Below, one piece after another: positions 115 through 37,943 of a DNA stretch of 64,000 bases. The translations under genes were made by a program, and so were the position numbers. This stretch comes from Rhodococcus sp. IEGM 1409 (lineage in GTDB: Bacteria > Actinomycetota > Actinomycetes > Mycobacteriales > Mycobacteriaceae), in NCBI RefSeq assembly GCF_030056735.1, contig NZ_JASHKN010000008.1:124001-188000 (forward strand). Reading direction: 5' to 3'. The notes under the pieces are model-generated. The model was not told the origin of the DNA. It did no database searches and worked only from the letters and a program-made list of their open reading frames with translations. Positions within the stretch are counted from its first letter, which is position 1. Each line of letters begins with the position of its first letter.

Positions 115-525
115 CTACCGCTGGTTGCGGGGCTTCCAAACCACCAACGCGTTGTTGCGCGGGATCGGCACGAGGTCCCGGCGATAGCCCGCATGGACTT
201 TCGCGATCTCCTCGGCCAATTCGCGGACGCGATGCTGCAGAGCCTCGACCTGGTTGGTCAGTTCGATGATCCGTTTGATTCCGGCAAGGTTGACGCCCTC
301 GTCCTGCGAAAGCCGTTGCACTTCACGAAGAAGCGCAACATCACGAGGGGAGTAGCGTCGTCCGCCACCGGTGGTTCGGTGCGGGGTGACCAAACCGAGT
401 CGGTCGTAGTTACGCAAGGTCTGCGCATGCATTCCGGCCAACTCGGCTGCCACCGAGATCACGAAGATCTGAGCGTCAGGATCGACCGTCGCATCCCATT
501 GATTCTGCGGTCGCTCGGTCATCAT
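115..525 (-). CDS. hspR: Heat-shock repressor HspR (MerR family)
   Basis: Autoregulatory repressor of the chaperone operon. The N-terminal half is a MerR-type winged helix ([21 protein letters not shown], then [20 protein letters not shown]), followed by a coiled-coil-like stretch ([19 protein letters not shown]). About 136 residues, usual for actinobacterial HspR. I chose the ATG at 525 because its ATGA overlaps the dnaJ stop; an upstream GTG at 537 and the next ATG at 522 are alternatives. It is the last gene of the operon. In Streptomyces and Mycobacterium HspR uses DnaK as co-repressor and binds HAIR operators; HAIR-like sites lie before dnaK here (4238-4313). The sequence shows the fold and position; the regulation is known from the family. 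Confidence 0.95.
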
Positions 526-1694
526 GCACCGGCCCACCCGGCCCGTGGATCGAACCCGCTCGCCTTCTCGGCTTCGAGATAGGTTTTCAGCGCTTCGATC
601 GCCGGGTCGTCCAACTTCTGCGGGACGGATACCTTGACGGTGACCAGAAGGTCACCAGCTCCCTCGGGACGCTTGGGGATGCCACGTCCGCGAACTCGCA
701 GAATGCGCCCGTCCACCGTTCCGGCCGGAACCTTCACTCCGACACGGCCGTCCAAGGTCGGCACCGACAGTGTCGTTCCCAGTACCAGCTCGCCGTAGCT
801 CACCGGAACCGTCAGTGTCAGGTCGTCACCGTTGCGGCCGAAGACGCTGTCCGGCTTGACGCGGATGTTGACGAACAGGTCGCCGGCCGGAGCTCCGCGG
901 AGTCCCGCTTCGCCCTTGCCCTTGAGTCTGATCTTCTGACCGTCGCTGACGCCCGCAGGCACCCGTACCGTGATGGTCCGTGTGCGATTGGTGACGCCGC
1001 TACCGTGGCAGTCCTCGCAAGGCGAATCGATGATCGAGCCGGTTCCCCGGCAATCGTCACACGGCTCACTGAATCCGAAAGCGCCCTGGTTCCGGCTCAC
1101 TACGCCGGTTCCGTTGCAATGCGGGCACACTCGCGGGCTGGTGCCTGGCTTTGCGCCGCTGCCGTGACACGTGGTGCACGACGTCGGGCTGGTCAGACGA
1201 AGTGGGACGGTGACACCGAGCGCTGCTTCGCGGAAGGCGAGCGTCGTCTCGGTCTCGAGATCCTTGCCTCGACGCGGACGGTTGGGCGCAGCTGTTCGCT
1301 GGCCCGCTCCCCCACGGTTGAACAATCCGCCGAAGATGTCTCCGAGACCCGAGTCCTGTCCACCGGCGCCGCCGCCGAACAGATCGTTGATGTCGAAACC
1401 ACCAGCGCCGGGGTTGAATCCACCGCCGCCTTGTGCGCGGGGGCCGAAGCCGCCGCTGGCAAACAGACGCCTGGCTTCGTCGTACTCCTTGCGCTTTTCC
1501 GGGTCGGACAGCACTGCATGAGCTTCGCTGACTGTCTTGAAACGCTCTTCGGCCTTCGCGTCGTCAGGGTTGGCATCGGGATGCAGATCCCGGGCCAGCT
1601 TGCGATACGCCTTCTTGATCTCGTCGGCCGTGGCGGTGGACGAGACGCCCAGCTCCTTGTAGAAGTCCTTCTCGATCCACTCCCGTTGACTCAC
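522..1694 (-). CDS. dnaJ: Chaperone DnaJ (Hsp40, type I)
   Basis: Co-chaperone that stimulates the DnaK ATPase and delivers unfolded substrate. The J domain at the N terminus contains the HPD motif (LHPDANPDD, near residue 38), followed by a Gly/Phe-rich linker (about 75-135), a zinc-binding region with four CxxCxGxG-type repeats ([32 protein letters not shown]) and the C-terminal substrate-binding region. 390 residues, full length, matching DnaJ1 of mycobacteria. GTG start at 1694 is preceded by a strong AGGAGGA ribosome site about 10 bases upstream. The gap to grpE is 22 bp, and the stop overlaps the hspR start, so all four genes are probably one transcript. Confidence 0.97.
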
Positions 1695-1716: not shown

Positions 1717-2313
1717 TTACTTCGCTTCTTCCTCTGAACCGTCAGCAGGCTTGTCGCCCACCCGGTCCGTCACGGCCACCATCGCGGTCCGAAGGACCCG
1801 GTCGCCGAGCTTGTAACCCTTGCGCATGACCGTCCCGAGTACGGGGTCGTGGCCTTCGCCTTCATGCTGCACCGCTTCGTGGAGCGCGGGATCGAAATCG
1901 TCACCCTCGTTACCGAAGTCGATCAAACCCAGACCCGTCAGGGTCGTGTTGAGCTTGTCCGCGAGCGCACGCAACGGACCTGTTTCCAGGTCACCGTGTG
2001 CCCGAGCGCGATCCAGGTCGTCGAGAATTCCGATGAGCTCGGTGATGACCGAAGCCCGCGCGGTTTCCTTGATGACCTGCTTGTCACGCTCGACGCGACG
2101 ACGGTAGTTGGTGAACTCCGCCTGCAAGCGCTGCAGATCCGCAGTTCGTTCGGCGAGCTGATCGGTGGCGGATGCTTCCTCCACGATCGACTCTGCTTCC
2201 TGAACTACCCCTGTGTCTTCCGAGTCGAGCGGCGGCAGGGATTCCCCCGCCGCCTCTCCCTGTGCACCGGTCTCGGGGTCGACCGGGTTGTTCTCGGAGT
2301 TGTCCGAGGTCAC
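1717..2313 (-). CDS. grpE: Nucleotide exchange factor GrpE
   Basis: Releases ADP from DnaK. An acidic N-terminal tail precedes a long helical segment ([20 protein letters not shown], about 58-80) and the conserved beta domain signature ([17 protein letters not shown] followed by [16 protein letters not shown], about 140-180). 198 residues, normal for actinobacteria. The GTG start at 2313 overlaps the dnaK stop codon by GTGA, which suggests translational coupling to dnaK. Confidence 0.97.
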
Positions 2314-4163
2314 TTCTTGTCCGAGTCGGTGGGCTCGTCGACAACCTCGGCGTCGACGACGTCGTCGTCATTGCCAGCGCCGTCGGTGTTTCCGGCCTCG
2401 TTTGCAGCGGAAGCCTCGTAGATGGCCTGGCCCAGAGCCTGCGACTCGGTGCCCAGCTTCTCCACTGCGGTCTTCACTGCAGCGATGTCGGTGCCTGCCA
2501 GGGCGTCGTTGACGTCCTTGACCGCTGCCTCGACCTTGGTCAGGATCTCCTCGGAGACCTTGCCCGCGTTCTCACCGTCACGCTGCTCCTTGACGAACTT
2601 CTCCGTCTGGTGGACCAGCGACTCGGCCTGGTTGCGGACCTCTGCCTCTTCGCGACGGGCCTTGTCTTCCTCGGCGTGAGCCTCGGCATCCTTGACCATG
2701 CGCTCGATCTCTTCCTTGGACAGACCGGAGCCGTCCTGGATCTTGATCGTGTTTTCCTTGCCGGTGCCCTTGTCCTTCGCCGTCACGTGCACGATGCCGT
2801 TGGCGTCGATGTCGAACGTGACCTCGATCTGCGGGACGCCACGCGGGGCGGGCGGCAGATCGGTGAGCTCGAAGGAGCCGAGCAGCTTGTTGTGCGAAGC
2901 GATTTCGCGCTCACCCTGGAAGACCTGGATCTGCACCGAAGGCTGATTGTCGTCAGCCGTGGTGAAGGTCTCGGAACGCTTCGTGGGGATCGTGGTGTTG
3001 CGCTCGATGAGCTTGGTCATCACGCCACCCTTGGTTTCGATACCGAGGGAAAGCGGCGTGACGTCGAGGAGCAGAACGTCCTTGACCTCACCCTTGAGCA
3101 CGCCGGCCTGGAGTGCGGCGCCGACGGCGACGACCTCGTCCGGGTTGACACCCTTGTTGGGCTCACGGCCACCGGTCAGTTCACGAACCAGATCGGAGAC
3201 GGCCGGCATACGGGTGGAGCCACCGACGAGCACGACATGGTCGATGTCCTTGACGGCGATTCCGCTGTCCTTGATCACTGCCTGGAACGGCGCACGGGTG
3301 CGATCGAGCAGATCGGAGGTGATCTTCTGGAACTCGCTGCGGGAGAGCTGCTCGTCCAGGAAGAGCGGGTTCTTGTCCGCGTCGACCGTGATGTACGGGA
3401 GGTTGATGGAGGTGCTCTGCGAGCTGGAGAGCTCGATCTTCGCCTTCTCCGCAGCCTCACGCAGACGCTGCAGGGCCATCTTGTCCTTGGTCAGATCGAT
3501 GCCGTTCTGAGCCTTGAACTTGTCGACCAGCCAAGCGACGACGCGCTCGTCCCAGTCGTCGCCACCGAGGTGGTTGTCACCGGAAGTTGCACGAACCTCG
3601 ACGACGCCGTCGCCGATTTCGAGCAGGGAGACGTCGAAGGTTCCGCCACCGAGGTCGAAGACCAGGATGGTCTGCTCGGTGTCACCCTTGTCCAGTCCGT
3701 ACGCCAGTGCAGCCGCGGTGGGCTCGTTGACGATACGAAGGACGTTGAGGCCGGCGATCTGGCCGGCTTCCTTGGTTGCCTGACGCTGTGCGTCCTCGAA
3801 GTACGCGGGGACGGTGATGACGGCGTCGGTGATGTCTTCGCCGAGGTAAGCCTCCGCGTCACGCTTGAGCTTCATGAGCGTGCGGGCGCTGATTTCCTGC
3901 GGCGTGTACTTCTTGCCGTCGATTTCAACGTTCCAGTCAGTGCCGATGTGGCGCTTGACGGAGCGGAGGGTGCGGTCGACGTTCGTGACTGCCTGGTTCT
4001 TCGCGGGCTGACCGACGAGAACCTCGCCGTTCTTGGCAAATGCGACCACCGAGGGGGTGGTACGTGAGCCTTCGGCGTTGGCGACCACTACGGGCTCGCC
4101 GCCCTCCAGCACTGCAACTACCGAGTTGGTCGTACCGAGATCGATACCGACTGCACGAGCCAT
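2310..4163 (-). CDS. dnaK: Chaperone DnaK (Hsp70)
   Basis: ATP-dependent cytoplasmic chaperone. The nucleotide-binding domain shows the phosphate-1 loop ([17 protein letters not shown] at residue 6 onward), phosphate-2 ([19 protein letters not shown]) and the adenosine motif ([13 protein letters not shown]), followed by the linker [16 protein letters not shown] and the peptide-binding domain. The C terminus is acidic ([10 protein letters not shown], then DEPTDSDKK). 617 residues, full length. The start ATG at 4163 follows a GAAAGGTAGG ribosome site. It heads the grpE-dnaJ-hspR operon and lies downstream of HAIR-like operators, as in other actinobacteria, where it is induced by heat through loss of HspR binding. 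It is the only canonical Hsp70 in the window; two others (14529 and 34691) have degenerate phosphate-2 loops and membrane anchors. Confidence 0.98.
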
Positions 4164-8416: not shown

Positions 8417-9901
8417 CTATTCGGGCACAATTTCGGCCAAGACGCCCTCGGCGCTGCGGGCAGCAACCAGGCAGGCGCGCGAGGTGAATCTGTCGAAGAG
8501 CGGATGTCTGGACAGTTCGCGCCATCGCCGGACAGCCGCCGTAGCCCGCGCACGCTGCACCTCCGACGATTCTTCCGGTTCGCAGCCCAGCCGATCGCTG
8601 GCCCGGATTCCGTAGCCACCGATCAGTCTTTGCAGTTGTGCCAGGTCGTCGGGGGGCAGATCTGTGTGTACCGAACGAAGACGCCCGAGCAGGCGAAGTT
8701 CGTGGAAACCGTGAACATCGGCGAGCAACCGTTGCGCCTCCGCCGCGATCTGATCGCCTTCCTCACTCGGATCGGCTTCGAGGATTCTTCCCAGCGTCAC
8801 CAGTGCTGTATGCGATTTGAGCTGATCTGCCCGTTGACCGAATTGAACGTCGATCACCTGACGCAGTTCGTCCAGGCCGCTGCGCTCCAACAATTCGGCC
8901 GCCAGGGACGGTGAATCAGTGGCCCCCAGCTTGATCGACGTCACAGCGAGGCGAATTCCGAAGAGCCCGAACCGATCGGCCAATTGCGCCCGCATGGCCG
9001 CATCGACCGGCAGCGGACTGTCTTGCCTGGCAAAGCGATCCGCGGACAGGAGCGCCAGGCTCAGATCCTCGGCCGGAACCTGCGCGAGTGCCGAGAAGGC
9101 CGAGAACTCGCTCTGTCTCATCGTCCGAGCAGCGAGCGCGAGCAGACCCGCCACCGGAACCACCGACTGGCACAGGCCAGTTCGCTCCAACTCCTCGGCA
9201 AATCGTGCCGCGACGTCCTTCGCAGAAGACAACGCGTCGAGCCTGCCCGCGCCGACCTCGTCGGCACGCGAGAGAACACCGATCACTCCGAGCGGCCCGG
9301 ATTCTCCGCCCACATGATCCGCGATCTTCCCGAGGAACTGCATGTCACTGGCGTTCAGGGCCCGCAGGAGATAGACCACTGCATCCGCGCCCGGTGCCCC
9401 GCCGTCAGGAACAAGCATGTCCCAGGTGCGGGCCGAAACCTCGGTCGAGAGCGACGAGGTACCCGGTGTGTCGATGATCGTCGTGCGAGCCAATGCCGAA
9501 GACGGCCAGTCGACGTCGATGCGGTCCACCGAGTCTGCGGTGTACTCGCCCAGATCGAAGGTGAGTCTGCCGTCGCGGCGCGTCACCGGCACGTTGAACT
9601 CGGCGCCGTTCTCGGCCGTCGCGGTCACCTGCGGCGTTGTCCCGTTCCGATACCAGGTGACGACGCGCGTGCACTCCGTCGCATCAGTGGGCGCTATGTC
9701 CTGTCCGACAAGAGAATTGAGCAGCGTCGACTTACCTGCCTTGAGGGAGCCGGCGAGTGCCACCCGGAGTGGCTCGTCGAGCCTGGCCGCACATTCTTCC
9801 AACTGGGCGCGCGTCCGTGGCTGATCGACGTAGACCCTCCTGGCGTGGTCGATCAGTGCGTGTGCCGACTCCACAGCGGTCACGGTGGTCGTGGCATTCA
9901 T
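8417..9901 (-). CDS. iniC: IniC-like dynamin-family GTPase
   Basis: 494 residues, close to the 493 of M. tuberculosis IniC. G1 P-loop GSLKAGKSTLLNSLVG (about 50-66), switch region Thr in PTDATECTRVV, G3 DTPGTSSL, and an altered G4 SRADE. The rest is helical, as in bacterial dynamin-like proteins, with no clear membrane span. The ATG at 9901 overlaps the iniA stop by ATGA, so the two GTPases are translationally coupled. In mycobacteria the ini genes respond to cell-wall inhibitors such as isoniazid and ethambutol; mycobacterial IniA was shown to be a membrane-remodelling dynamin-like protein. A role for IniC as its partner is inferred from the pairing. Confidence 0.9.
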   Translation of the reverse strand: MNATTTVTAVESAHALIDHARRVYVDQPRTRAQLEECAARLDEPLRVALAGSLKAGKSTLLNSLVGQDIAPTDATECTRVVTWYRNGTTPQVTATAENGAEFNVPVTRRDGRLTFDLGEYTADSVDRIDVDWPSSALARTTIIDTPGTSSLSTEVSARTWDMLVPDGGAPGADAVVYLLRALNASDMQFLGKIADHVGGESGPLGVIGVLSRADEVGAGRLDALSSAKDVAARFAEELERTGLCQSVVPVAGLLALAARTMRQSEFSAFSALAQVPAEDLSLALLSADRFARQDSPLPVDAAMRAQLADRFGLFGIRLAVTSIKLGATDSPSLAAELLERSGLDELRQVIDVQFGQRADQLKSHTALVTLGRILEADPSEEGDQIAAEAQRLLADVHGFHELRLLGRLRSVHTDLPPDDLAQLQRLIGGYGIRASDRLGCEPEESSEVQRARATAAVRRWRELSRHPLFDRFTSRACLVAARSAEGVLAEIVPE

Positions 9902-11766
9902 GCGTTGGTCACCTTTGCCGAAGCGAGAGCGGGACTTTCACCGATCAGCGTTCCGGCAACGGCGTCGAGCTCCGCGACGACGCGCATGTCGGTCTCCAGA
10001 CGCTTGATACGAGCGGCATGTTCGCTCGACTCCAGCTGCGCGGCTTCCTGCGTAGCGCGGAGGGATTCGTTGATCGAGCGCAGCGCCTGCTCTGCGATCT
10101 CGGTGAAGTGATCACGCAACAGCCGCTGCACCAGGCGGAGGCGATCCTTCGACTCCTTGCCCACCTGGAAGCTGACGTCGTCGGCAAACCGCCGGATAGC
10201 CGCTTTCGCCTCGGCTCGACGCTTGAGTACCTGAGCCTGCTTGTCTTCACGATAAGCCTTGGTACCCAGCAGGACCCCGGCGCCGATGGAGATCGGATTG
10301 ACCAGAGCCATGCCCATCATCGTGGTGATCAAGCCGAACATCAGCACGCCGCCGTACGAGCCGCGCATACCGACCAGGACCTTCTGAGTGATGCCGATTC
10401 GACCGGATTCGAGATCCGACAATGCGCCGACCGGTTCCAGGAAACCGTCGGTGTCGGCGACGTCGAGATGCGGCAGCGCGACGTCGCCGGTCTCCGCAAA
10501 GTGCTGCGCCACAACTTCTGCCAGCCATTGAGCACGGTCGTGAGCCCACACGAAGTTGTCACCGATCGCGGTGGCGATCTCCTGTTCGAGCCACTCCCCC
10601 ACGACGTCCCAGTCCTTACCCGGATCGCCTTCGTCGACCGTCTCCTCGGCCTGGCGGGTGACCCGGCGCAACCGGTCCCGGAGGTCGTGATCGATGTCGG
10701 CTGCGAGGTCTGCGATGCCGTCGCCGAGGCTCTGTTGCCAGAGTGAGGTCTTCTTGTGCAGTTCCTCGGCCGCTGTCCGGGCGCGCTGCAAGCCGGCGAC
10801 CGCTGCTTGAGCGGTCGACGGATCCTTCAGCGCCGCAAGCTCACTGCCCATCTCCAACGTCAGATGCGCTGCCGCGGAGCGCACGTCCATCGCGACCGCG
10901 CGTCGGGTGTTCGATTCGGCACGTGCAACGACGTTGTCTCGCAAGAACTGATAGAGGTCCTGGAAGCCGGATTCCGCTTCGAGTTCTTTGTCCCCCAGCC
11001 TCAGCGCGTGCGACCGCAGTACCGAGGAGATCGGGATGAGCGGCAGGTCCAGCCCGGCGCGCTGGAGGTGTCCGCGGTCGGCGTCGAGGATCTGCCTCCA
11101 GTGCGGGTACAGATCGGTCTTGCTGATCAGCCCGGCTACCGCAGGGCACAGATTGACGACCTGGCGGATGAATCCCAACTCGGGTTCGGTGAACTCCTGG
11201 CTGGAGTCCGACAGAACCAACACGGCATCGGCCGCGGTGATCAATCCCAATGTTCCTGCAGCATGCGGATTTCCATGACCGCCGACGCCGGGGGTGTCGA
11301 TCAGTACCAAACCGTCGGCCAACAGTGGACTGGGCACACCGACCTCGACGCGCAGAACTTCGCGCCCTTCAGCGCGAGGTGTGGCCGGGGTGATCCCCAT
11401 GAGTTCTTCGAGCGGAAGCGGTACCCGGATGGGCGCCGCACCCGGATCGGCGAGAATCAGTTCGGCGACCGCGGTCTCCGCGTACTGCACGACCGTCGCC
11501 ACGGCCGTGGTCTCGTCGTCACCGACCGAGCAGACGTCGATGCCGAGCAGCGAATTGACGAACTGGCTCTTGCCCTGCTTGAGAGGGCCGACCACCACGA
11601 TGCGAATACGCGGGTCGTTGACTCTGACCTGAGCGTTCTCGAGTCGACGCACCAGATCCGTGCGCCCGAAATCCTTCGCCACTACAGCTGTTCGTTCGAG
11701 CAACGACGCCGTCGACGACGCGACGCGTGCCTTCCGACTGCTTACCTGACTCGCTGAATCACTCAT
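9898..11766 (-). CDS. iniA: IniA-like dynamin-family GTPase
   Basis: 622 residues (M. tuberculosis IniA has 640). G1 loop GPLKQGKSQFVNSLLG (about 60-75), switch Thr in GDDETTAVATVVQY, G3 DTPGVGGHGNP (about 155), G4 SKTDLYPHW. A long helical stalk follows, with a hydrophobic paddle-like region (GGVLMFGLITTMMGMALVNP, then ISIGAGVLLG, about 470-500) fitting the membrane-inserting tip of bacterial dynamins. Read after iniB with a 123-bp gap containing an 11-bp hairpin, and coupled to iniC by a 4-base overlap. Predicted to act at the inner face of the plasma membrane in envelope stress. Confidence 0.92.
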   Translation of the reverse strand: MSDSASQVSSRKARVASSTASLLERTAVVAKDFGRTDLVRRLENAQVRVNDPRIRIVVVGPLKQGKSQFVNSLLGIDVCSVGDDETTAVATVVQYAETAVAELILADPGAAPIRVPLPLEELMGITPATPRAEGREVLRVEVGVPSPLLADGLVLIDTPGVGGHGNPHAAGTLGLITAADAVLVLSDSSQEFTEPELGFIRQVVNLCPAVAGLISKTDLYPHWRQILDADRGHLQRAGLDLPLIPISSVLRSHALRLGDKELEAESGFQDLYQFLRDNVVARAESNTRRAVAMDVRSAAAHLTLEMGSELAALKDPSTAQAAVAGLQRARTAAEELHKKTSLWQQSLGDGIADLAADIDHDLRDRLRRVTRQAEETVDEGDPGKDWDVVGEWLEQEIATAIGDNFVWAHDRAQWLAEVVAQHFAETGDVALPHLDVADTDGFLEPVGALSDLESGRIGITQKVLVGMRGSYGGVLMFGLITTMMGMALVNPISIGAGVLLGTKAYREDKQAQVLKRRAEAKAAIRRFADDVSFQVGKESKDRLRLVQRLLRDHFTEIAEQALRSINESLRATQEAAQLESSEHAARIKRLETDMRVVAELDAVAGTLIGESPALASAKVTNA

Positions 11767-11802
11767 GAGCTACGTTGACCCGCAATTCTTCCCGACTCGA
11801 AT

Positions 11803-11841
11803 ATCCGGCCCTGCGAACGCATAGCGCACACAGGGCCGGAT
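11803..11841 (-). terminator. Hairpin between iniB and iniA (possible attenuator)
   Basis: Perfect 11-bp inverted repeat ATCCGGCCCTG (11803-11813) and its complement (11831-11841) with a 17-base loop, between the iniB stop and the iniA start. Minus-strand RNA has no U-run after the stem, so it may reduce rather than end readthrough and lower iniA/iniC output relative to iniB. mRNA processing or stabilisation is an alternative. Confidence 0.5.
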
Positions 11842-11889
11842 TTGTTACATCAGGTCATTTTGACCGATTTCAGTTCCTGCGTCAGCAGA

Positions 11890-14208
11890 TCAGGGATGCA
11901 GGTGATCGACAACCGCAACCGGGTCGATGTGATCGACCGGTGCTGCAACCGAATCCTCGGCGAAGAGCGAGTGTTCGGTATCGGCGCTCAGGCCCGAAGC
12001 GGAACCCGAACCGAAAGCGTCGGTCGCATCGATCGACGACCACGGGTTCAGCGCACCGGTCAACGAGCTCGTCAGGTCGGACACACCGCTGACCGCTCCA
12101 CCGAGAGATCCACCCAGGTCAGCGACCCCACCGCCGCCAACGGTACCGCCACCGTCGACGGTGCCACCGGCAGCAGCGGTTGCGTCTGCTCCGATCGAAC
12201 CGGTCACGTCGGTCACTGCTCCGCCGGCTCCGACGGCTCCGACGGCTCCGACGGCTCCGCCGAGGGATCCACCCACGTCAGTGACACCATTCAGTGCACC
12301 GCCTAGCGACCCGCTCAAGCCGGCCACCGCATCCGTGGCTGCATCGAGACCTGCGGTTGCGTCGAGACCTGCTGTTGTGTCCAGAGCACCGCCCACCGTT
12401 GCTCCGAGGTCACCGGTCACACCGCCGAGGTTCAGGCCGTCCGCCGCGATGCTTCCGAGATCGACGGAAGGCAGTTCAGCGGAGATCGGGCCAAGGTTCA
12501 CTGCGCCGAGGTCGACGGAGGGCAGGTCGGCGCCGATCGCACCGGTGCCGATTCCGCCGATGTTCAGTGCCGTGTCCAGCGCGCCACCGAGGGCACCTTC
12601 GGCACCGAGAATGCTGTCGAGAGAGCCGCCCAATCCAGCCCCGAGGCCGGCGCCCAGTGCACCGTCGAGTGCGCCGGTGAGGTCCGTGCCCACAGAACCG
12701 ACAGCGCCCAAGCCGCCTGCACCTGCCAGAGCGGTGTCGAGAGCCGCGGCCACACCGGCAGCCAAACCTGCTTCGCCGCCCAGGCCGAGTGCACCACCGA
12801 GGTCGATTCCGGTAAGTCCGCCTGCGCCCAGCGCTGCATCGAGTGCGCCGCCAAGGCCGCCCGCGAGCCCGGCATCGACACCGAGTGCCGAACCGAGGAC
12901 GCCTTCGAGGGCAGTCGACAGGTTCGCGCCGCCGCCCAGAGCCGCCGCGAGGTCGGCGCCGAGTCCGCCTTCGATGTCGAGTGCTCCCCCGAGCAGTCCG
13001 CCGAGTGCGCCGCCCAGGTCGGCTCCGACCGTTCCGCCGGCACCGAGAGCGCCGGAGAGTGCCGCGCTGAGCTGCGCGCCGAGGTCTGCGCCTCCGCCGA
13101 GCACTGCGTCGAGGTCGAGTCCTCCGCCGAGGCCCAGCGCTGCGTCGAGTGCACCGCCGAGTGCAGTTTCCAATCCGCCACCGACGCCGAGTGCTCCGCC
13201 GAGGGCGCCGCTGAGTGCAGCACCGAGATCGAGCCCTCCCGCGATATCCGTGAGAACACTGACGTCGGTGATCGCGCCGAGAACGCCGCCGAGCGATGCA
13301 CCCAGGTCGGCGCCGATCGTGCCGCCGGCTCCCAGGACGCCGGAGAGCGCGCCTGACAATGCCGTGCTGAGGTCACCCGTCAGAGCGCCGGCCAGGTCCA
13401 GGCCGCCGCCGAGGGCAAGGGCGGATTCCAGTGCGCCGCTCAGGCTTGCACCCAGTTCGCCGCCGATGTCGAGAAGACCACTGAGGTCTGCTGCGCCGCC
13501 GAGGAGTCCGCCCAGAGCCAGTCCGAGATCGGCTCCGAGGTCGCCGCCGATGGCAAAGACGGGTGCGAGGGCTCCGCTGAGCCCTGCCGTCAGGTCGAGT
13601 CCGCCGACTGCACCGATTGCTGCGTCGAGCGCTGCTCCCAGTTCCGCGGTCAAGCCTCCGGTCACTCCGAGCGCGCCGCCCAGAGCCGCGCTGAGCTGTG
13701 CACCGAGGTCGAGTGCGCCGCCGAGATCGAGTTCGCCACCGAGGCCGAGGCCGGCTTCGATGACGGCGCCGAAGGCTGCGCCGAGGTCGGCACTGATCTC
13801 GCCCCCGATGGCAAGCGCGGCACTGAGGGCTGCTGCGAAGTCGCCGACCAGATCGAACTGGCCGCCGAGGGCGCCTCCGACTCCGAGGCCCGCGCCGGCG
13901 CCGAGACCCAGGCTGCCGCCGAGGCCGCCACCGAGACCACCGGTGAGTCCACCACCGATTCCGAGGCCGCCGCCGATCGCACCGGCAGCGGACGCGCCGG
14001 CGTTGACGATCGCGGACAGGTCGGCGCCGCCACCGGCAAAGAGTCCGGACTCGGCGACCAGCGGAGCAACAGCGACGATGTCGGCGGGGCTGACGTCGCA
14101 CAGGCCTGCAGCGTTGAGAGCCTCGGTCGGGTTGGCGCAGTAGTTGGCAGCTGCCTCGTCGTCACGAAGTAGCCCGAGGATGAATTCGAGTACGGCGTTC
14201 GTTGCCAT
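11890..14208 (-). CDS. iniB: IniB-like Gly/Ala/Leu-rich repetitive protein
   Basis: 772 residues. The first 60 or so form a folded-looking head (NAVLEFILGLLRDDEAAANY, then NPTEALNAAGLCDVSPADIVAVAPLV) that matches the N-terminal layout of mycobacterial IniB (a short LxxILxLFR-type helix, then an AGL..I/VSP segment). The remaining 700 residues are almost only Gly, Ala, Leu, Asp, Ser, Val, Thr and Ile, in loose blocks of 30-40 residues around LGGALG, AALDAALG, GGGLDLGGAL and DLGAQLSAAL. The C terminus differs: DSVAAPVDHIDPVAVVDHLHP, with three His and four Asp. No signal peptide or membrane span is evident. Mycobacterial IniB is about 480 residues, so this one is much longer. Start ATG at 14208 follows AGGAGAA. 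It is the first gene of a leftward iniB-iniA-iniC unit. Biochemical role unknown. Confidence 0.85.
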   Translation of the reverse strand: MATNAVLEFILGLLRDDEAAANYCANPTEALNAAGLCDVSPADIVAVAPLVAESGLFAGGGADLSAIVNAGASAAGAIGGGLGIGGGLTGGLGGGLGGSLGLGAGAGLGVGGALGGQFDLVGDFAAALSAALAIGGEISADLGAAFGAVIEAGLGLGGELDLGGALDLGAQLSAALGGALGVTGGLTAELGAALDAAIGAVGGLDLTAGLSGALAPVFAIGGDLGADLGLALGGLLGGAADLSGLLDIGGELGASLSGALESALALGGGLDLAGALTGDLSTALSGALSGVLGAGGTIGADLGASLGGVLGAITDVSVLTDIAGGLDLGAALSGALGGALGVGGGLETALGGALDAALGLGGGLDLDAVLGGGADLGAQLSAALSGALGAGGTVGADLGGALGGLLGGALDIEGGLGADLAAALGGGANLSTALEGVLGSALGVDAGLAGGLGGALDAALGAGGLTGIDLGGALGLGGEAGLAAGVAAALDTALAGAGGLGAVGSVGTDLTGALDGALGAGLGAGLGGSLDSILGAEGALGGALDTALNIGGIGTGAIGADLPSVDLGAVNLGPISAELPSVDLGSIAADGLNLGGVTGDLGATVGGALDTTAGLDATAGLDAATDAVAGLSGSLGGALNGVTDVGGSLGGAVGAVGAVGAGGAVTDVTGSIGADATAAAGGTVDGGGTVGGGGVADLGGSLGGAVSGVSDLTSSLTGALNPWSSIDATDAFGSGSASGLSADTEHSLFAEDSVAAPVDHIDPVAVVDHLHP

Positions 14209-14528
14209 GGCGGGTTCTCCTGAAGTTCGTTGACCGTGTTGTTGCCGGTGGTCCGGAAACTGGTGCGCTGCCAGAGGTAGCGAGTGGAATCAACGCTAAG
14301 AACTTTGGCGACCGGGGCCAACGGGGAGCATCCCCCTCTTCTACGGGGGCGGAGGGGGAAGTCCCCTACGGGCTACGACTGGCCTGGTTAGGGGATTTGC
14401 CCCGATTAGGGGATCGACCCCCTACTTCGTCGGGCCGCCTCCAATCCGGTAACGATCTTGGTCCTGAAACCGACATCGCAGACAACCGCGACAGTCCTTC
14501 TGTCGCCCACGACCAGGGGAGTTCGTTC
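14209..14528. promoter_or_regulatory. Divergent iniB / DnaK-like promoter region with GGGG/CCCC inverted repeats
   Basis: 320 bp without a gene between two divergent starts. It carries three inverted repeats: AGGGGG-AAGT-CCCCT (14353-14367), TAGGGG-ATTTG-CCCC (14389-14403) and TAGGGG-ATCGAC-CCCCTA (14407-14424). The last two begin with the same TTAGGGGAT, 18 bp apart, so they would lie on one face of the helix. CTACGGGG-type half sites also occur at 14340-14350 and 14365-14372. The spacing suggests operators for a dimeric regulator, most simply the LuxR/MalT-type protein encoded at 16265. That assignment is inference. Confidence 0.6.
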
Positions 14529-16250
14529 ATGGCGGCAGGGCTCGGCATCAGCATCGGTTCGGCCACTCTCGTAGCTGTCAGCGACGGTTCGACCGGTGAA
14601 ACGCAACAGGTCCGCTTACCCAGTGCACTGCAATTGGACGACGGATCCGTCATCACCGGATTTGTCGAGCGCGTCGGCGATCCGATTCCGATACTTGCCG
14701 CCGACGGCACCGAGTACCGCGGCGAGGATCTCGCGGCAACAGCGGTAGCGGCGCTCGTCGGCCAGGCGGGCGGAGACGAAGGGCCAACTGTCGTCCTGGC
14801 TCACCCTGTGGGGTGGAACCGCCACACAGCACGCACCATGGAGTCTGCGCTGGACGACGCCGGGGTTCACGGGGCGACTCTCGTCACCGAACCCGCGGCG
14901 GTCATGGCGTGGCTCGCCGCTTCCGGAACTGTTGTCAACGACGGTCTGACCGTCGTCTACGACCTCGGCGCCCGCTCGCTCGACGTCACGATGATGTCCA
15001 CGACCGGCGGACGGAGCGAGATCTTCGGCAAGCCGCTGCGCAGCGAGGACATCGGCGGCGACGAATTCGATCACCTCGTCACCGTGCACCTGCTCGACGC
15101 GGTGTCGGATCACTTCGCAGCCCTTGATCCCTTTGCTCCCCAGACGATTGAAGCGCTGGAAACTCTGCGCGAGCATGCCCGCGCAGCCAAGGAGGAACTT
15201 TCCACCGAGACGGAAACCGTTGCCCCCGTGGCACTTCCCGGTGCCGTCAGCGACGTTCGACTCGTTCGTTCCGAGCTCGAGGATCTGATCCGGCCCGCCC
15301 TCACAGAATCGGTGGCCTTGGTTCGCGAAAGCCTGCGATCTGCCGGCGTCGAGTCCAGTGACGTCAATCAGGTTGTTCTGGCCGGCGGAAGCTCGTCCAT
15401 TCCCCTTGTCGCCGAACTATTGTCTGCGGAGCTTCGTGTCCCGGTGATCGCCGACGCCGATCCCGCGTCGTGCGCGGCGTCCGGCGCTGCGACGCTGGCC
15501 ACAGAATTGACAGCCACCTCGGCACTCGCTGTCCCTGTTGTCCCCACCGAACCGACCCGCAAGCCCGCACCAGTTCCGGCCTTCTCCACTCCGTTGCTCG
15601 CCGAGCCGACCGAGGAAGAGAACACGGCGACTCGACGCTCGTCGAGGGTGGGCGTCGTTGCTGCAGTGGTTGGTGCGTTCATCGTGCTCGCCGCCGGCGG
15701 GCTCGGAATCGGAACAGCCATGGACAAGATCAACGTCCCGTCCAGTTCGGCGAACACCACCAGCGAGTCCACCTCCTCGACTGCATCGACCACCGCAGGC
15801 TCTACTCCGGGCAGCACCACGGCAGCCGAAGCAGCAGGCACCGGATCCACGACTGCGAACAACGGAACTCAGAACAACCAGCCCGGTTCTCCTGCTGCCG
15901 CAGGCGGTTCGACGACGGCACCAGGGGCAGTTCCGGTTGCCGGCGCACCGGCTGGATCCGCGCCGGCACCGGGCGAGACCGCCCAGTCGGCGCCTGCACC
16001 TACCGCACCCGGCGCCCCGGCACCCGCTCCCGCCCCGGCACCGGCACCCGCACCCGCACCCGCACCTGGAGCAGGCGTCGGAACCGGTATCGGTGATGCT
16101 GCGACCGGCGTCGGCAACGGAGTCGGCGGCTTGGTCAACGGCGTCGGGGACGGTGTCGGCGGCGTGGTCGGAGGTCTCGGTAACGTCGTCGGTGGTGTCG
16201 GCAACGTGGTCGGTGGTGTCGTCGGCGGCGTCACCGCGCCGATCCGCTGA
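14529..16250 (+). CDS. Membrane-anchored DnaK-like (Hsp70/actin-fold) protein
   Basis: 573 residues. The N-terminal 350 or so follow the Hsp70 nucleotide-binding domain: GISIGSATLVAVSDG (phosphate-1), VVYDLGARSLDVTMMSTT (phosphate-2, where Hsp70 has [10 protein letters not shown]) and VVLAGGSSSIPLVAELL (adenosine motif). There is no peptide-binding domain. Instead a single membrane span (VVAAVVGAFIVLAAGGLGIG, about 372-391) leads to an outer region rich in Ser/Thr, then Pro-Ala repeats and a Gly/Val tail (GVGNGVGGLVNGVGDGVGGV). The ATG at 14529 fits best: AGGGGAG lies just upstream and the residues before it are non-coding in character. It is divergent from iniB and 14 bp before the regulator gene, so it may sense ATP state or envelope signals for that pathway; this is inference. 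Actinobacteria have several such proteins of unknown function. Confidence 0.85.
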   Translation: MAAGLGISIGSATLVAVSDGSTGETQQVRLPSALQLDDGSVITGFVERVGDPIPILAADGTEYRGEDLAATAVAALVGQAGGDEGPTVVLAHPVGWNRHTARTMESALDDAGVHGATLVTEPAAVMAWLAASGTVVNDGLTVVYDLGARSLDVTMMSTTGGRSEIFGKPLRSEDIGGDEFDHLVTVHLLDAVSDHFAALDPFAPQTIEALETLREHARAAKEELSTETETVAPVALPGAVSDVRLVRSELEDLIRPALTESVALVRESLRSAGVESSDVNQVVLAGGSSSIPLVAELLSAELRVPVIADADPASCAASGAATLATELTATSALAVPVVPTEPTRKPAPVPAFSTPLLAEPTEEENTATRRSSRVGVVAAVVGAFIVLAAGGLGIGTAMDKINVPSSSANTTSESTSSTASTTAGSTPGSTTAAEAAGTGSTTANNGTQNNQPGSPAAAGGSTTAPGAVPVAGAPAGSAPAPGETAQSAPAPTAPGAPAPAPAPAPAPAPAPAPGAGVGTGIGDAATGVGNGVGGLVNGVGDGVGGVVGGLGNVVGGVGNVVGGVVGGVTAPIR

Positions 16251-16264
16251 CCGGTGGGCTTTCG

Positions 16265-18700
16265 ATGAACCGTGACAGCGTCGCCGAATCGTCTTACATC
16301 GCAGGACTTTTGCGCGGGATCGTCCTGACTGCAACGCCACTGCGCCTGTTCGTCACCGGGACCGACGCCAGCGCCCGTCTCCAAGTCACGAGGGCGCTGA
16401 GGAAGAGAATCGAATCGGGTGACAAACCCGTGGTCACCACGCTCGCACGTGACGCCCCGGCCGATGCGATTGTGGTGATCGCGGACGCGCAGGCTCTGAC
16501 CTCCGATGAAATCCGTGCCCTGAACGAGCTTGTTCAACGCGACGACCTCGGAGTTTTCGTCGCCTCCGATCGGATCGATCCTCCACTCGCACCGATCTAC
16601 GCGAACATCTCGAGTTTCGGTACCGCCCTTCATCTGAACCTGTTGAACCGATCCGATATTCGGAAGATCGCCGCAGAGCGAAGAGTCCCGCTCGACGACC
16701 GTGCCGTGCTGACGCTCGAGCACCTTGCCGGTGGTTCCTTCGGGGCCATCGAAGCGTACTTCGCCGCCGCCTCGGCGGGCCGCCCGGAAATGGCGACAGC
16801 CGTACGCACACACTTCCTTCATCAGGTCACCGCTCTACATCCGATCGAGCGTGAGATCCTCGAAGTTTCACTCACCGTCCCGGACATCGACGCCTTCGAA
16901 CTCGATCTGGGACAGGAGAAGTTCAGCCTCACAGCGGCATTCGACCGTGCACTGGCGACCGGTCTGTTCGGTTCACGATCTCCTCTCGTCGCGAGCGTTT
17001 TGGCAGAGTCGACGAGCACAAGGCGTATCCGCAGCGAGCTGATCGGAATCGTCGAATCACGCGCGCACGCGCGAACTCTCGACATCGACACTGCACGAAG
17101 ACTTTTCGACTTCGGTATCCGCCACCGCGATCTCACGGCCGTGCTACGAGACGCAGTCGACGGCAGCACGCCGGCGGTCGCGGCAGATCTCTTTCGTCGT
17201 GTGCATTCGATCGAGCCTCTCGACCTGGCCGACACGCTGCTGTACGCCCAGGTCTCAGCTCGGAGTGGTGACATCGACACCGCGTGCCGCCTGGCAGATT
17301 CCGTCATCGCCGAACCCGATCTCGACAACGCGAAACTGGCGGCGGCAGTGCGGGTCCGCGCAGCTTCGTCCGCGGCGTGCGGTCAACTCGGCGCCGCTGC
17401 AGATCTCTACGCCTGGCTCGGATCAGAGCGCACCGGAACCGAATCCCCCTTCGCCGCAATCACCTTCCTCGGCCTCGGCAAGGTCGACGAAGCGAACGCG
17501 GCGCTCACCGGACACATCGGATCACCGTCGAGCTCCACTGTCGGCGCTGCCACGCTGGCCAACGGACTCATGCAATCGGTAACGGGGAGTGCACCGAGTG
17601 CTCTCAACACCATGTCCCGCGCACTCTCCCTCCCCGGCGGCGCCGACACATCGCAATTCCAGCCTGATTCCGCGCCGGCACTGGTCGCTCTGGCGCTCCT
17701 GCACAACGGTGCCCATGAACGCGCCGCCGCTGTTGTCACCGCCGCGATCGCCGCCGACGACGCAAGCAGCCACACGTGGGCACGGCTTCACATTCTCGGC
17801 GCCTGGATCGCGATGGTGCGCGGGCAGGACACTGCTGTCGAAGACCTACCGGAAGAGGTAGTCCGCGGTCCCCTCCGCGAACGTGACGCACTGTTTCTGC
17901 ATGCTCTGATCGTGGGTCTCGCTCGGCGCTCCGGCGATCTCGCTCAGTTGCGTCGGGCTTGGTCCGGCGCGGCAGGCGCCCTCTCGTCCTGCAGCGTGGA
18001 TCTCTTCAATTTGCTTCCCATTGGCGAACTGTGGCTTGCGGCAGTACGGCTCGACGAGGCCGAGCAGGTCGAGTATCTGGTCGACGACGCGCGCTCGCTC
18101 CTCCGCGCACTCGGCGAGCCGCCACTGTGGTCGTCACCGCTGCATTGGTACGGCGTCCAGGCGTCGATCCTCTCGCAGTCACCGGCCGACCTCCTTCCAC
18201 ACGCTCACGCACTCGCAGAATCGGCCAAAACCCACACTTACGCAGCCGGTTTGGCGACCGCCGGCCGCCAATGGCTCCTGCTCATGCAAGGCAGCGTCGA
18301 CGCAGACGAAGTCGAAGCCGCTGCGCGAACACTCAGTCGCATCGGACTCCCCTGGGACGCTGCCCGCCTCGCCGGCGAAGCAGCGCTGCGCACCCCGGAC
18401 ACCAAATCGGCGACGGCCTTGCTCCACGTTGCACGCTCGCTACGCACAACGTCGACGGCCGAGACGATTGCAACCGATTCGGCCGACAGCGCGACACCAC
18501 CGTCGGTACTGACCGAGCGCGAACAAGAAGTTGCCGAACTCGTCGTCGTCGGCCTGACGTATCGGGAAATCGGCGAACGCCTCTACATCTCCGCCAAAAC
18601 CGTCGAGCACCACGTCGCACGTATCAAGCGGCGCGTCGGAGCGCAGTCTCGTTCGGAATTGCTCACAATCCTTCGAAGCATGACACCGGCGAACAAATAG
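16265..18700 (+). CDS. Large LuxR/MalT-type transcriptional regulator
   Basis: 811 residues. The C-terminal 60 form a LuxR-type HTH (LTEREQEVAELVVVGLTYRE, then KTVEHHVARIKRRVGAQSRSELL, about 750-805). The N-terminal region has the layout of a STAND/AAA ATPase (LRLFVTGTDASARLQVTRAL; AIVVIADAQAL like a Walker B strand), but the P-loop lacks the GxGKT lysine, so nucleotide binding is doubtful. The middle is a long array of helical repeats, Ala/Leu-rich and TPR-like. Size and place match Rv0339c, the LuxR-type regulator beside etfD and iniBAC in M. tuberculosis. It probably controls the iniB/DnaK-like divergent promoter in response to an envelope or metabolite signal. Start ATG at 16265 lies 14 bp after the upstream stop. 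Confidence 0.88.
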   Translation: MNRDSVAESSYIAGLLRGIVLTATPLRLFVTGTDASARLQVTRALRKRIESGDKPVVTTLARDAPADAIVVIADAQALTSDEIRALNELVQRDDLGVFVASDRIDPPLAPIYANISSFGTALHLNLLNRSDIRKIAAERRVPLDDRAVLTLEHLAGGSFGAIEAYFAAASAGRPEMATAVRTHFLHQVTALHPIEREILEVSLTVPDIDAFELDLGQEKFSLTAAFDRALATGLFGSRSPLVASVLAESTSTRRIRSELIGIVESRAHARTLDIDTARRLFDFGIRHRDLTAVLRDAVDGSTPAVAADLFRRVHSIEPLDLADTLLYAQVSARSGDIDTACRLADSVIAEPDLDNAKLAAAVRVRAASSAACGQLGAAADLYAWLGSERTGTESPFAAITFLGLGKVDEANAALTGHIGSPSSSTVGAATLANGLMQSVTGSAPSALNTMSRALSLPGGADTSQFQPDSAPALVALALLHNGAHERAAAVVTAAIAADDASSHTWARLHILGAWIAMVRGQDTAVEDLPEEVVRGPLRERDALFLHALIVGLARRSGDLAQLRRAWSGAAGALSSCSVDLFNLLPIGELWLAAVRLDEAEQVEYLVDDARSLLRALGEPPLWSSPLHWYGVQASILSQSPADLLPHAHALAESAKTHTYAAGLATAGRQWLLLMQGSVDADEVEAAARTLSRIGLPWDAARLAGEAALRTPDTKSATALLHVARSLRTTSTAETIATDSADSATPPSVLTEREQEVAELVVVGLTYREIGERLYISAKTVEHHVARIKRRVGAQSRSELLTILRSMTPANK

Positions 18701-19194: not shown

Positions 19195-19303
19195 ACAGAT
19201 GGATTCAACCGGCCGACAGGAGGTGCACATTCCTCCTCGAAACTTTTCCCCTATGGTGGGTGCCGTACCTACCGGCTCGGTGCCGGGGACTCGAAGGGAT
19301 TTC

Positions 19304-20644
19304 ATGCGTAACTCGTTGGCGATCCGCACCGCTGTGGTCGGCGCCTCGGCACTACTGCTCGCAGCTCCATTCATCACGACGGCATCGGCAGGGCCCGCCT
19401 CCGACACGCATGTCGAACAGCTCGACGCCGACCAGCTTCCGGCTGAGCTGGTCGAGGCGATCACACGCGATCTGAAGATCTCCCCGCAGGAGTACCTGGA
19501 CCGCGCTGCCAAAGCTCAGGAGCTCGGTGCGTACGCCCAGGATTTCAAGTCCGAGCGCCCCGGCGACTACGCCGGCTCGTGGATGGGACTCGACGGTCAA
19601 CCCGTCGTAGCCGTCACCACCACCGAAGCTGCACGCATCGCCGCCGACGACGGTTACCGCACGCACGTCGCCCCCGTCTCCGCCGACACCCTCGAGAAGA
19701 CGCTGGCCGACGTCAACGGATGGATTGCCGGGCTGCCCAAGGAAATCTCACGCGCAGTCAATTCGGCGACGATCGACGTCCTGAACAACCAGGTCGTCAT
19801 CGACGTCGCGAACAGCCCCGTCGGGCAGGCACTCAATCTGCCGACCCTGCTCGAGAACACCAAGATCGTTCTCAGCCCGGACGCTGGCGGATCGGTTGAT
19901 CCCCGAGCACTCGGCGGCGACACCTACATCACGTCGACGGGCCCCATTCGCGAGACGCCGACCGAGAACATCTCGGTCTGCTCGTTCGGGTTCAACGCCG
20001 TCGACGATCAGAACAATGCACTCAATATCAGTGCTGGACACTGCAATCCGGCCGAGGGTTCGAAGTCCCCGGTCTACCTGCCGAATCACGTGAACGTCGA
20101 CGACAGTCAGTTGATCGGCGCCTTCTCACAGTCTTCGGTCGGCAACAACGCCGGCGATCTCGATTACTCGGTCATCAAGTTCGACCAGTCGGGCATCGAT
20201 GCGGGCCTCGATCGCGCTGCCGTCCGCGGCGCCAACGGCACCACCCTCGCGATCACCGGAACAGCACGTCCCGTGATCGGCGCTCCCATCTGCAAGTCGG
20301 GCCAGACGTCGTCCTTCACCTGTGGCGTCGTGGCGGCGGATCGAGTCGAAACACAGCTGGTCATGGCCGACGGTGATTCGCGAACCGTCCGCGGATTCGC
20401 CGGTACCGCGTGCACCCTCGCCGGCGACAGCGGCGGCGCCATCGTCTCCGGAACCTTGGCGTTGGGCATCACCAGCGGCTCGAACAGCAGCGGCGCCCCG
20501 AGTTGCAACGAAGCGAACCTGGTACTGGCGACCTCGGGTGGAACCTCGAATCTCGGTATTCCGGTCGGAGACATCCTCGATGCGGCAGATCGCGCATCCG
20601 GTGGCGGTGTCGGTTCCGGAATCCGCGTTCGCACTGCGGGTTGA
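19304..20644 (+). CDS. Secreted chymotrypsin-fold serine protease 1 with pro-domain
   Basis: 446 residues. A signal peptide (MRNSLAIRTAVVGASALLLA, cleavage likely after TTASAG or nearby) is followed by a pro-region of about 180 residues (ELVEAITRDLKISPQEYLDR) like those of streptogrisin/alpha-lytic proteases. The catalytic triad is visible: His246 in SAGHC, Asp287 in DLDYSV, Ser376 in GDSGGAIVSG, and paired cysteines (CSFGF...GHC, PICKSG...FTCG). Start ATG at 19304 follows GAAGGGATTTC and gives a clean signal peptide. A paralogue of the same architecture follows at 20869. Predicted to be exported, self-cleaved and active outside the cell; substrate unknown. Confidence 0.9.
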   Translation: MRNSLAIRTAVVGASALLLAAPFITTASAGPASDTHVEQLDADQLPAELVEAITRDLKISPQEYLDRAAKAQELGAYAQDFKSERPGDYAGSWMGLDGQPVVAVTTTEAARIAADDGYRTHVAPVSADTLEKTLADVNGWIAGLPKEISRAVNSATIDVLNNQVVIDVANSPVGQALNLPTLLENTKIVLSPDAGGSVDPRALGGDTYITSTGPIRETPTENISVCSFGFNAVDDQNNALNISAGHCNPAEGSKSPVYLPNHVNVDDSQLIGAFSQSSVGNNAGDLDYSVIKFDQSGIDAGLDRAAVRGANGTTLAITGTARPVIGAPICKSGQTSSFTCGVVAADRVETQLVMADGDSRTVRGFAGTACTLAGDSGGAIVSGTLALGITSGSNSSGAPSCNEANLVLATSGGTSNLGIPVGDILDAADRASGGGVGSGIRVRTAG

Positions 20645-20702: not shown

Positions 20703-20868
20703 CTGTTGTCGGCCGGGGTCAGCGCTGCGTGCTCGTGTAACGGGTGGGATTAGCGCGTTCGAACCCATATAGTCATGGTCGACTGTGATCGGCTCACCAC
20801 AAGTCCGTGAGCCGTATCCGTGTGCTCCCAGGGGGGTGGTACGCGGTCAACGAAGTGGAAAGGCCCTC

Positions 20869-22179
20869 ATGCGAAGCTCCATCGCACGTCGTGCCGCAGT
20901 GTTCGGTTCGGCCGCGCTGCTGCTCCTCGGACCGATTACCGCGGTCGCGAACGCAGAACCGAACGAATCCGGGGTATCCGATCAGGCAGCCCATCTGCCC
21001 GTCGAACTCGCCGAAGCCCTACAGCATGACTTGGCGCTGACGCCCGACCAGTTCGTCTCGCGTTCCGAACTCGCGCAGAAGCTCGCGGAGTTCGCCGCAA
21101 TCGCGCGCGTCCAGTTCCCCGACTCTTTTGCCGGTGTGTGGCTCGACGACCTCGGCAAGGGCGTCGTCGCTCTCGCTGATGGTCGCGACAAGGATGCTGC
21201 CCGCGAGGCCGCCGAAAAGGCAGGCTTCGAAGTCAAGGACGTCGCTCAGAGCGAGCAGGCTCTGCAGGGCCAGCTCTCGGCGCTCAACACTTGGCTCGAG
21301 TCGCAGCCTGCCGAGGTCGCAGACCTCGTGCGTGGCATTGCCGTCGACGTAGTCGGCAACGGAGTCGCCCTCACGGCCGATCCTGCCGCCGGCATCGAAT
21401 TGCCTGAATTCCTGAAGCGGACAGTTGTACACACCGCTGCTCCGCTGCTGGTTCCCCCGATCGTCGCGGACCTCATCCCCGCAACCGGATCCGCAACCGG
21501 CGACGCAGCACTGGGCGGAGATGCATTCGGCGCAACCTCCGGTAACACCGGACTGCGTTGTTCGTTCGGATTCAACGGCACCGACGGTTCAGGACGCACG
21601 GTCAACATCAGCGCCGGCCACTGCGATCCCAACCGCGCCGCTGCCGGCACCTCGAACTCCAGCCAGGTCTTCCCGATGGTGAACAACCAGACCGGCCCCC
21701 GCGTCGGATTCTTCGCCAAGAGCAGCTTCGACGGACGCGACTACTCGATCATCAACATCGACGACAACGCGAAGTACCGCTTCGAGAACAACAGCGTGCG
21801 GGTCCCGTTCAACCGCTCGGTCAACATCACCGGTACCGCCGATCCTGTTGTGGGCGCCCCGGTCTGCAAGGCAGGATCGACCACCGGCTTCAGCTGCGGC
21901 GTCGTCACCGGCGTCAACCGCGTCGCCAAGGTTTTGGATCACACGCTCGACAACGGCTTCACCACCAACATCTGCGTCCTGCAAGGTGACAGCGGTGGCC
22001 CCATCGTCTCCGGAACACTGGCAGTGGGCATCACGAGTGCCTCCAACGTCGCCACCTCTCCCCTGTGTGAGATCGCACAGGCCGAGACATTGTTCGGACA
22101 GGAAGCACCGACGCAGTACGCGACGCCGATCAACGACATCCTCGCGGCCAATCCGGGCCTGAAGGTTCGTGACTACTGA
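20869..22179 (+). CDS. Secreted chymotrypsin-fold serine protease 2 with pro-domain
   Basis: 436 residues, paralogue of the protease encoded at 19304. Signal peptide MRSSIARRAAVFGSAALLLL ending near AVANAEP, then a pro-region (ELAEALQHDLALTPDQFVSR) and a mature domain with His251 in SAGHC, Asp291 in GRDYSI and Ser375 in GDSGGPIVSG, with the same cysteine pairs (LRCSFGF...GHC; PVCKAG...FSCG). The ATG at 20869 gives a normal signal peptide; a TATAGT box lies about 100 bp upstream (20768-20773). It ends before a bidirectional hairpin. The mature domains of the two align throughout, so the pair arose by tandem duplication. Confidence 0.9.
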   Translation: MRSSIARRAAVFGSAALLLLGPITAVANAEPNESGVSDQAAHLPVELAEALQHDLALTPDQFVSRSELAQKLAEFAAIARVQFPDSFAGVWLDDLGKGVVALADGRDKDAAREAAEKAGFEVKDVAQSEQALQGQLSALNTWLESQPAEVADLVRGIAVDVVGNGVALTADPAAGIELPEFLKRTVVHTAAPLLVPPIVADLIPATGSATGDAALGGDAFGATSGNTGLRCSFGFNGTDGSGRTVNISAGHCDPNRAAAGTSNSSQVFPMVNNQTGPRVGFFAKSSFDGRDYSIINIDDNAKYRFENNSVRVPFNRSVNITGTADPVVGAPVCKAGSTTGFSCGVVTGVNRVAKVLDHTLDNGFTTNICVLQGDSGGPIVSGTLAVGITSASNVATSPLCEIAQAETLFGQEAPTQYATPINDILAANPGLKVRDY

Positions 22180-36367: not shown

Positions 36368-36515
36368 GATCCACCTTCGTCGACCGTGGACGGGTCCCGT
36401 CAGCAGACCCGTCATTCCCCGGCCGGAAGTCTACCCACTAGGGATGGGCTGCGAGGTTCGCGCATCGCATCCAACGCTTAAACGCAGCTACTATTTCGCT
36501 ACCTGGACGCTCAAC

Positions 36516-37835: not shown

Positions 37836-37943
37836 GTGTTGTTGGTATGCGCCCGAACTTTCCGACACGCGTACGCCAGGTGGGCGCGAAACCAACATCG
37901 GGCGTACGACGAGTGCGTCGCGCCTGCGACCTATGCTTCTGCC

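Follow-up and report, generated by a model that had tools for sequence, protein, structure and literature searches.

What place does a membrane-anchored DnaK-like protein have beside the iniBAC operon and its activator IniR? The question is raised by a 64,000-nucleotide stretch of DNA from Rhodococcus sp. IEGM 1409 (contig NZ_JASHKN010000008.1, positions 124,001 to 188,000), referred to below as the window, in which a dnaK-like gene and a gene for a LuxR-type regulator lie opposite iniB, iniA and iniC. This layout, described in an earlier sequence-only reading, was confirmed by the limits of the open reading frames (ORFs) and by domain matches. On the minus strand, iniB (11890..14208) encodes a protein of 772 residues with Gly/Ala-rich repeats and the conserved IniB N-terminal domain (NF038175 IniB_NTERM, 70 bits, cut-off 40), followed by iniA (9898..11766, 622 residues) and iniC (8417..9901, 494 residues), the start of iniC overlapping iniA by 4 bp; both of the latter encode dynamin-like GTPases with a Dynamin_N GTPase domain (8e-15 and 6.4e-12, respectively). 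Across a divergent promoter region of 320 bp (14209..14528, from ORF limits), common to iniBAC and dnaK-like/iniR, the plus strand carries the dnaK-like gene (14529..16250, ATG start at 14529, 573 residues, HSP70 5.9e-27) and, after a spacing of 14 bp, the iniR homologue (16265..18700, 811 residues, GerE domain PF00196 at 1.4e-13 and 50.7 bits). What seems to be new is the constant membership of the DnaK-like gene in the known IniR-iniBAC module; its conservation there is strong, and the mechanism discussed below we infer.

The mycobacterial module, which we take to consist of IniR (Rv0339c) and Rv0341-Rv0343, with Rv0340 as an iniB*-like gene, has in common with the locus of the window the iniB, iniA and iniC genes and, encoded divergently from them, an IniR built of MalT-like domains. 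The window differs from it in the membrane-anchored Hsp70-like gene between promoter and iniR, in the degenerate P-loop of its IniR, and in showing no separate iniB* gene, a single IniB N-terminal domain being found in the whole window. According to the passages of Boot 2017 (PMC5760070) drawn on throughout this text, IniR binds upstream of iniBAC in chromatin immunoprecipitation sequencing (ChIP-seq) and activates the operon, an iniR knockout is unresponsive to ethambutol and isoniazid, and iniBAC is inducible by trehalose. One sentence of the same source mentions a dnaK-like gene in M. smegmatis, which is like the present one in adjoining iniR and differs in being described directly downstream of it. 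A gene of this kind, which the sequence-only reading had held to be foreign to the mycobacterial module, had already been noticed beside iniR in a mycobacterium. Among the matches listed, with subscription papers outside the scope, that sentence is all that concerns the DnaK-like gene of this locus, and the passages of PMC13413693 and PMC11094368 drawn on hold nothing about it.

Linkage of the DnaK-like gene to iniR and to the locus

Of 201 family genomes, 105 gave an IniR match and 112 an IniA match, and none of the 105 lacks IniA. A DnaK-like match on the same strand, upstream of iniR and within 8 kb, was seen in 94 of these 105, a number that combines 90 rows with four genomes (G034, G116, G130, G154) whose nearest copy lies downstream and which have an upstream copy too; in one of the 90 (G052), the DnaK-like copy lies beyond iniC. 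Five of the 11 remaining genomes (G060, G454, G460, G492, G523) have iniR at most 1.2 kb from a contig end, and another, G404, has an adjacent DnaK-like gene by profile (locus L058).

A set of 144 fetched loci (L031-L174) was searched with profiles built from the family loci. IniR was found in 140 of them, four of which repeat another locus, and the nine that are cut by contig ends were dropped before counting, which leaves 131 assessable loci. The DnaK-like gene lies directly upstream of iniR in 121 of the 131, including all 24 outside the family, with a median gap of 17 bp (below 100 bp in 119/121). The other ten are L064, eight loci in which the gene lies beyond iniC, and L165, which is cut inside iniB; wherever it would be visible, the gene is present (130/130). 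The first phmmer pass had missed it in L033 and had not placed it upstream in L041 and L046, all three of which were recovered by the profile.

The named loci are the best 80 of 411, none of them named M. tuberculosis or M. marinum; the DnaK-like gene is upstream in 65 of them, not upstream in six, and nine are cut. Names with the gene upstream include Rhodococcus, Nocardia, Gordonia, Williamsia, Mycolicibacterium and Mycobacteroides, and the six loci without it are all Mycobacterium (L127 M. asiaticum, L140 M. szulgai, L153 M. angelicum, L165 Mycobacterium sp., L166 M. gastri and L170 M. rhizamassiliense). A conserved gene order beside iniBAC in related genomes, on which the sequence-only reading had staked its proposal, is thus what Rhodococcus, Nocardia, Gordonia and most of the Mycobacterium loci examined display, and chance proximity of the DnaK-like gene and iniR is rejected by the conserved linkage across loci.

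Where the gene has left iniR, it has remained with the locus. It is found on the far side of iniC in L127 (where the copy reaches the locus edge), L140, L153, L166, L170 and L073, and in L086 and L090, too, a genome search with longer stretches located a copy, which directly follows iniC and converges on it; gene loss in some mycobacteria, tied to an intact IniR P-loop, was dropped as an explanation since the latter two loci carry the gene there. In a single midpoint-rooted FastTree of 157 sequences, the eight past-iniC copies form one clade (support 1.0) within a clade that holds 39 upstream mycobacterial copies (support 0.95; 0.96 in a first tree without three of the sequences). This nesting indicates that in this group the gene switched sides of iniBAC. 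Mycobacterial copies downstream of iniR (n = 15) form a clade of their own (support 0.98), as do those after iniC in iniBAC orientation (n = 12, support 0.999). The latter are additional paralogues, carried by L115, L118, L134, L137, L148, L149, L164 and others, and together with the copies downstream of iniR elsewhere in mycobacteria they amount to repeated duplication at one locus.

A scan of 296 genomes at class level recovered IniR in 27 of them. Nine of the ten loci outside the order were fetched (G609, at a contig start, was left out), and in all nine the DnaK-like gene, IniR, IniA and IniC lie within 19 kb, with the IniB N-terminal domain in eight. In L183 (outside the order) and L064 (inside the family, with the DnaK-like gene past iniC), iniR, iniA, iniC and the DnaK-like gene are all on one strand and no recognisable iniB is seen. 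As these four genes stay together despite rearrangement, it is very likely that they constitute one functional unit.

The membrane protein, the regulator and their promoter

Residues 1-333 of the DnaK-like protein adopt the Hsp70 nucleotide-binding fold in the predicted model, after which come a brief linker, a single transmembrane helix predicted at about 371-393 and a Gly/Ala/Pro/Thr-rich tail with a predicted location outside the membrane; beyond the core, the model is of low confidence except for one helix. The membrane anchor proposed earlier holds as a prediction, there being a single hydrophobic stretch past the core with an arginine N-terminal of it. No substrate-binding domain was found, the profile match stopping with the nucleotide-binding domain of DnaK. 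At the positions of Asp8, Lys70 and Thr199, which we take to be the catalytic residues in DnaK numbering, the protein of the window has S8, E47 and S150, the equivalence to Lys70 depending on the sequence alignment. Among 98 family members (loci outside the family, mostly gaps beyond the first motif, were left out), Lys70 occurs in none (one gap), Asp8, at the phosphate site, in two (two gaps) and Thr199 in five; Asp194, the adenosine-side Lys270 and the Gly-Gly pair are kept. The loss of the hydrolysis residues together with retention of those on the adenosine side fits nucleotide sensing, without being proof of it. Ssz1 is an Hsp70 relative not known to hydrolyse ATP; compared with Hsp70/DnaK and relatives such as Ssz1, the present protein has no substrate-binding domain and no catalytic Lys and Asp, and it carries a transmembrane anchor and a low-complexity tail.

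The gene is not the canonical dnaK, an identity rejected because that gene is present separately at 2310-4163 on the minus strand, a few kb past iniC (966 bits, cut-off 648), with a DnaJ-like gene, recognised by eye, at 522-1694 (minus strand). A second protein with a degenerate Hsp70-like core, a Pro-rich linker, a hydrophobic stretch and a Thr/Pro-rich tail is encoded at 34691-36415 (minus strand), adjoining a UDP-glucose dehydrogenase-like gene (36516-37949); membrane Hsp70-like proteins may form a wider family.

The LuxR protein of the window matches NF038181 (reg_ATPase_IniR) with 453 bits over 17-825 of 827, by which a regulator unrelated to IniR is rejected; with the equivalog cut-off at 750 bits, it is treated as an IniR homologue from the same locus and not as an equivalog. 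It has the context of IniR, namely a divergent position beside iniBAC and a LuxR-type DNA-binding domain, and is 94% identical to the IniR of R. qingshengii (locus L095, in which the IniC profile scores 755 bits). Rather than an addition to the mycobacterial module, as the sequence-only reading had it, the regulator is that module's own IniR (NF038181 match; PMC5760070). Its architecture combines an N-terminal nucleoside triphosphatase (NTPase)-like domain with a degenerate P-loop, a superhelix of the MalT domain III type found in STAND/MalT-like regulators, and a LuxR/GerE DNA-binding domain. The fold is MalT-like; that a full-length MalT chain is not among the VIA-align matches listed excludes nothing. 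At the P-loop position, the window protein reads GTDASAR in place of the GK[ST] of STAND/MalT-like regulators, so the missing lysine reported earlier is real, but it is a trait of some Rhodococcus-type lineages only and not a feature of the module. GK[ST] is present in IniR of 108 of the 131 assessable loci and lost in 16, and in some the entire NTPase domain is gone; the call is a pattern match, and the 16 include L055, L058 and L063, where overlapping frames leave the IniR N-termini unclear. Most lineages have an intact P-loop; within Rhodococcus, some have lost or deleted it. According to the part of PMC6104191 drawn on here, iniBAC induction in BCG follows cellular ATP and appears to need an ATP rise; its authors' suspicion fell on the IniR ATPase. 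Where Rhodococcus IniR lacks the P-loop, it is unlikely that this ATPase is the sensor, and with P-loop or NTPase domain lost, control must come from elsewhere.

The segment 14340-14425, singled out by the sequence-only reading for regulator binding, contains conserved boxes: two IniR-type boxes, TTAGGGGAT, form a direct repeat on the plus strand (14388..14396 and, 18 bp on, 14406..14414, with TAGGGG at 14389 and 14407), and two inverted half-boxes CCCCTA lie on the minus strand (14363..14368 and 14419..14424, the second 12 bp past the start of the second TAGGGG). The TTAGGGGAT pair displays the GGGGA-core repeat of STAND/MalT-like target promoters, GGGGA being common to the IniR-type box and to the MalT box, GGGGA(T/G)GAGG (PMC7567727, passage drawn on). 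In the first set, comprising 47 promoter regions, eight-mer counting gives 37 regions with TTAGGGGA where shuffles give 0.26, and two of the 47 (L049, L059) lack TAGGGG. Among 68 promoter regions of the named loci, TTAGGGGA is present in 57 and absent from 11 (shuffles 0.51, at most 2), TAGGGG is present in every region (9.5 in shuffles), and 48 regions hold a pair at a spacing of 15-18 bp (0 in shuffles). Removal of four repeat loci gives 53/64 for TTAGGGGA and 64/64 for TAGGGG, and 1360 random stretches of the same loci hold 10, 39 and one occurrence of TTAGGGGA, TAGGGG and the pair, respectively. Mycobacterial loci mostly have the two boxes 15 bp apart, Rhodococcus-type loci mostly 18 bp; outside the order, six of nine loci have a TTAGGGG somewhere along their length. 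The 6.1-Mb genome contains a single exact TTAGGGGA pair separated by 6-10 bp, in agreement with the reported control by IniR of iniBAC only. Six promoter regions without an adjoining DnaK-like gene keep the boxes, which therefore go with IniR. By raw count, 46 of 113 regions have a -10-like hexamer for iniB whose distance from the first box is constant, and 32 -10-like matches for dnaK-like/iniR lie 67-69 bp on the other side, hence the boxes seem to be placed between two promoters. Since the mycobacterial relative acts in this way and the boxes are conserved, control of the iniB promoter by the regulator, as proposed earlier, is very probable.

Possible roles: gating of IniR or a part in repair

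The DnaK-like protein probably takes part in the response to cell-wall damage. The MalT fold of IniR, the conservation of a neighbouring membrane protein that has a nucleotide-binding fold and the precedent of MalK and MalT together suggest that it may dock and gate IniR. In the idle transporter, MalK holds MalT at the membrane (PMC10427625, passage drawn on); MalK of E. coli is, however, the ATP-binding cassette (ABC) ATPase of a transporter and not an Hsp70, and the ligand of MalT is maltotriose. By this analogy, the DnaK-like protein would be a membrane pseudo-ATPase and the fifth constant component of the module, produced here from one operon with IniR; its Hsp70-type domain would face the cytoplasm, and its low-complexity tail would lie on the outer side. 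At rest it would bind IniR at the membrane and prevent its oligomerisation, comparable to the hold of MalK on MalT; cell-wall damage, an altered bound nucleotide, or both would trigger release, with the envelope change being sensed by the tail. Free IniR would then bind the TTAGGGGAT repeats between the divergent promoters and switch on iniBAC, and probably its own operon too. In Rhodococcus lineages without the NTPase switch of IniR, control would rest mainly with this external gate. We hold the docking and gating of IniR tentatively, at somewhat below an even chance.

Several observations weigh against it. In M. marinum and M. tuberculosis IniR is functional, yet the passages of PMC5760070 report no dnaK-like gene for either; the gene sits past iniC, away from iniR, in the eight mycobacterial loci described above; and in four of the nine loci outside the order, L178, L179, L182 and L184, it faces iniB, with iniR beyond iniC, which ties it to the locus and not to iniR alone. 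Outside the family, a clear transmembrane stretch is seen in only 6 of 17 copies (13/24 in a rougher count), and with the gene in nearly every locus there is no contrast by which P-loop loss could be set against gene presence. The protein may instead act with IniB, IniA and IniC in repair, in the handling of IniB or the organisation of membrane sites, with no part in signalling and with the operon of iniR as co-expression only. Because the gene also adjoins iniB or iniC in several lineages, such a role is possible and nearly as likely as gating. The loci in which the gene faces iniB, the eight with the gene past iniC and the 12 with further copies after iniC in iniBAC orientation all speak for it, as do the Gly/Ala-rich tail, a feature shared with IniB here, and the arrangement of L064 and L183 on one strand; yet these two loci keep the gene without a recognisable iniB, and in 119 of 121 loci it lies less than 100 bp from iniR and divergent from iniB.

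The past-iniC copies of L086 and L090 slightly raise the repair role and lower the reading in which IniR alone senses trehalose or ATP, its DnaK-like neighbour being a dispensable modifier of minor weight. For the latter it can be said that IniR of M. marinum and M. tuberculosis is reported to respond to drugs and trehalose from a locus described without an adjoining dnaK-like gene (PMC5760070), but the constant presence of the gene in the 130 visible loci and in 9/9 outside the order, as well as its retention where IniR has lost the NTPase domain, make this improbable. That the protein is a working Hsp70 chaperone for envelope proteins, as its nucleotide-binding fold might suggest, is very improbable given the missing substrate-binding domain and the scarcity of Lys70, Asp8 and Thr199 in the 98 family members. 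To return to gating, the wider claim that an Hsp70-derived membrane pseudo-ATPase with a low-complexity outer tail gates a MalT-type activator across Actinomycetes, and took over the switch where Rhodococcus IniR lost its NTPase domain, is possible, though less likely than not.

Neighbouring observations and meaning for the family

Some further features were recorded in and around these loci. The iniB frames of L091 (2735-18049) and L092 (1751-16219) extend over 5105 and 4823 codons from stop to stop and would encode giant repeat proteins. Four genomes of genus g3 with no IniR match (G021, G234, G254, G293) carry a second IniA-like gene, about 40% identical. Just downstream of iniR in the window, two similar tandem ORFs on the plus strand (19199-20644 and 20785-22179) look by eye like secreted trypsin-type proteases (GDSGG), the first of them without a Pfam match. 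Locus L154, titled Kitasatospora arboriphila, is Williamsia-like and possibly stems from a mislabelled assembly.

Proposals for the route from cell-wall damage to IniR name trehalose and ATP (PMC5760070, PMC6104191, in the parts drawn on), and the conserved membrane partner is a concrete candidate link. The conserved boxes offer an exact DNA target for IniR binding, and Rhodococcus, where IniR has naturally lost its P-loop or NTPase domain in some lineages, is well suited to separating the possible switches. If gating of IniR by the DnaK-like protein is true, it would represent a new kind of transmembrane signalling.

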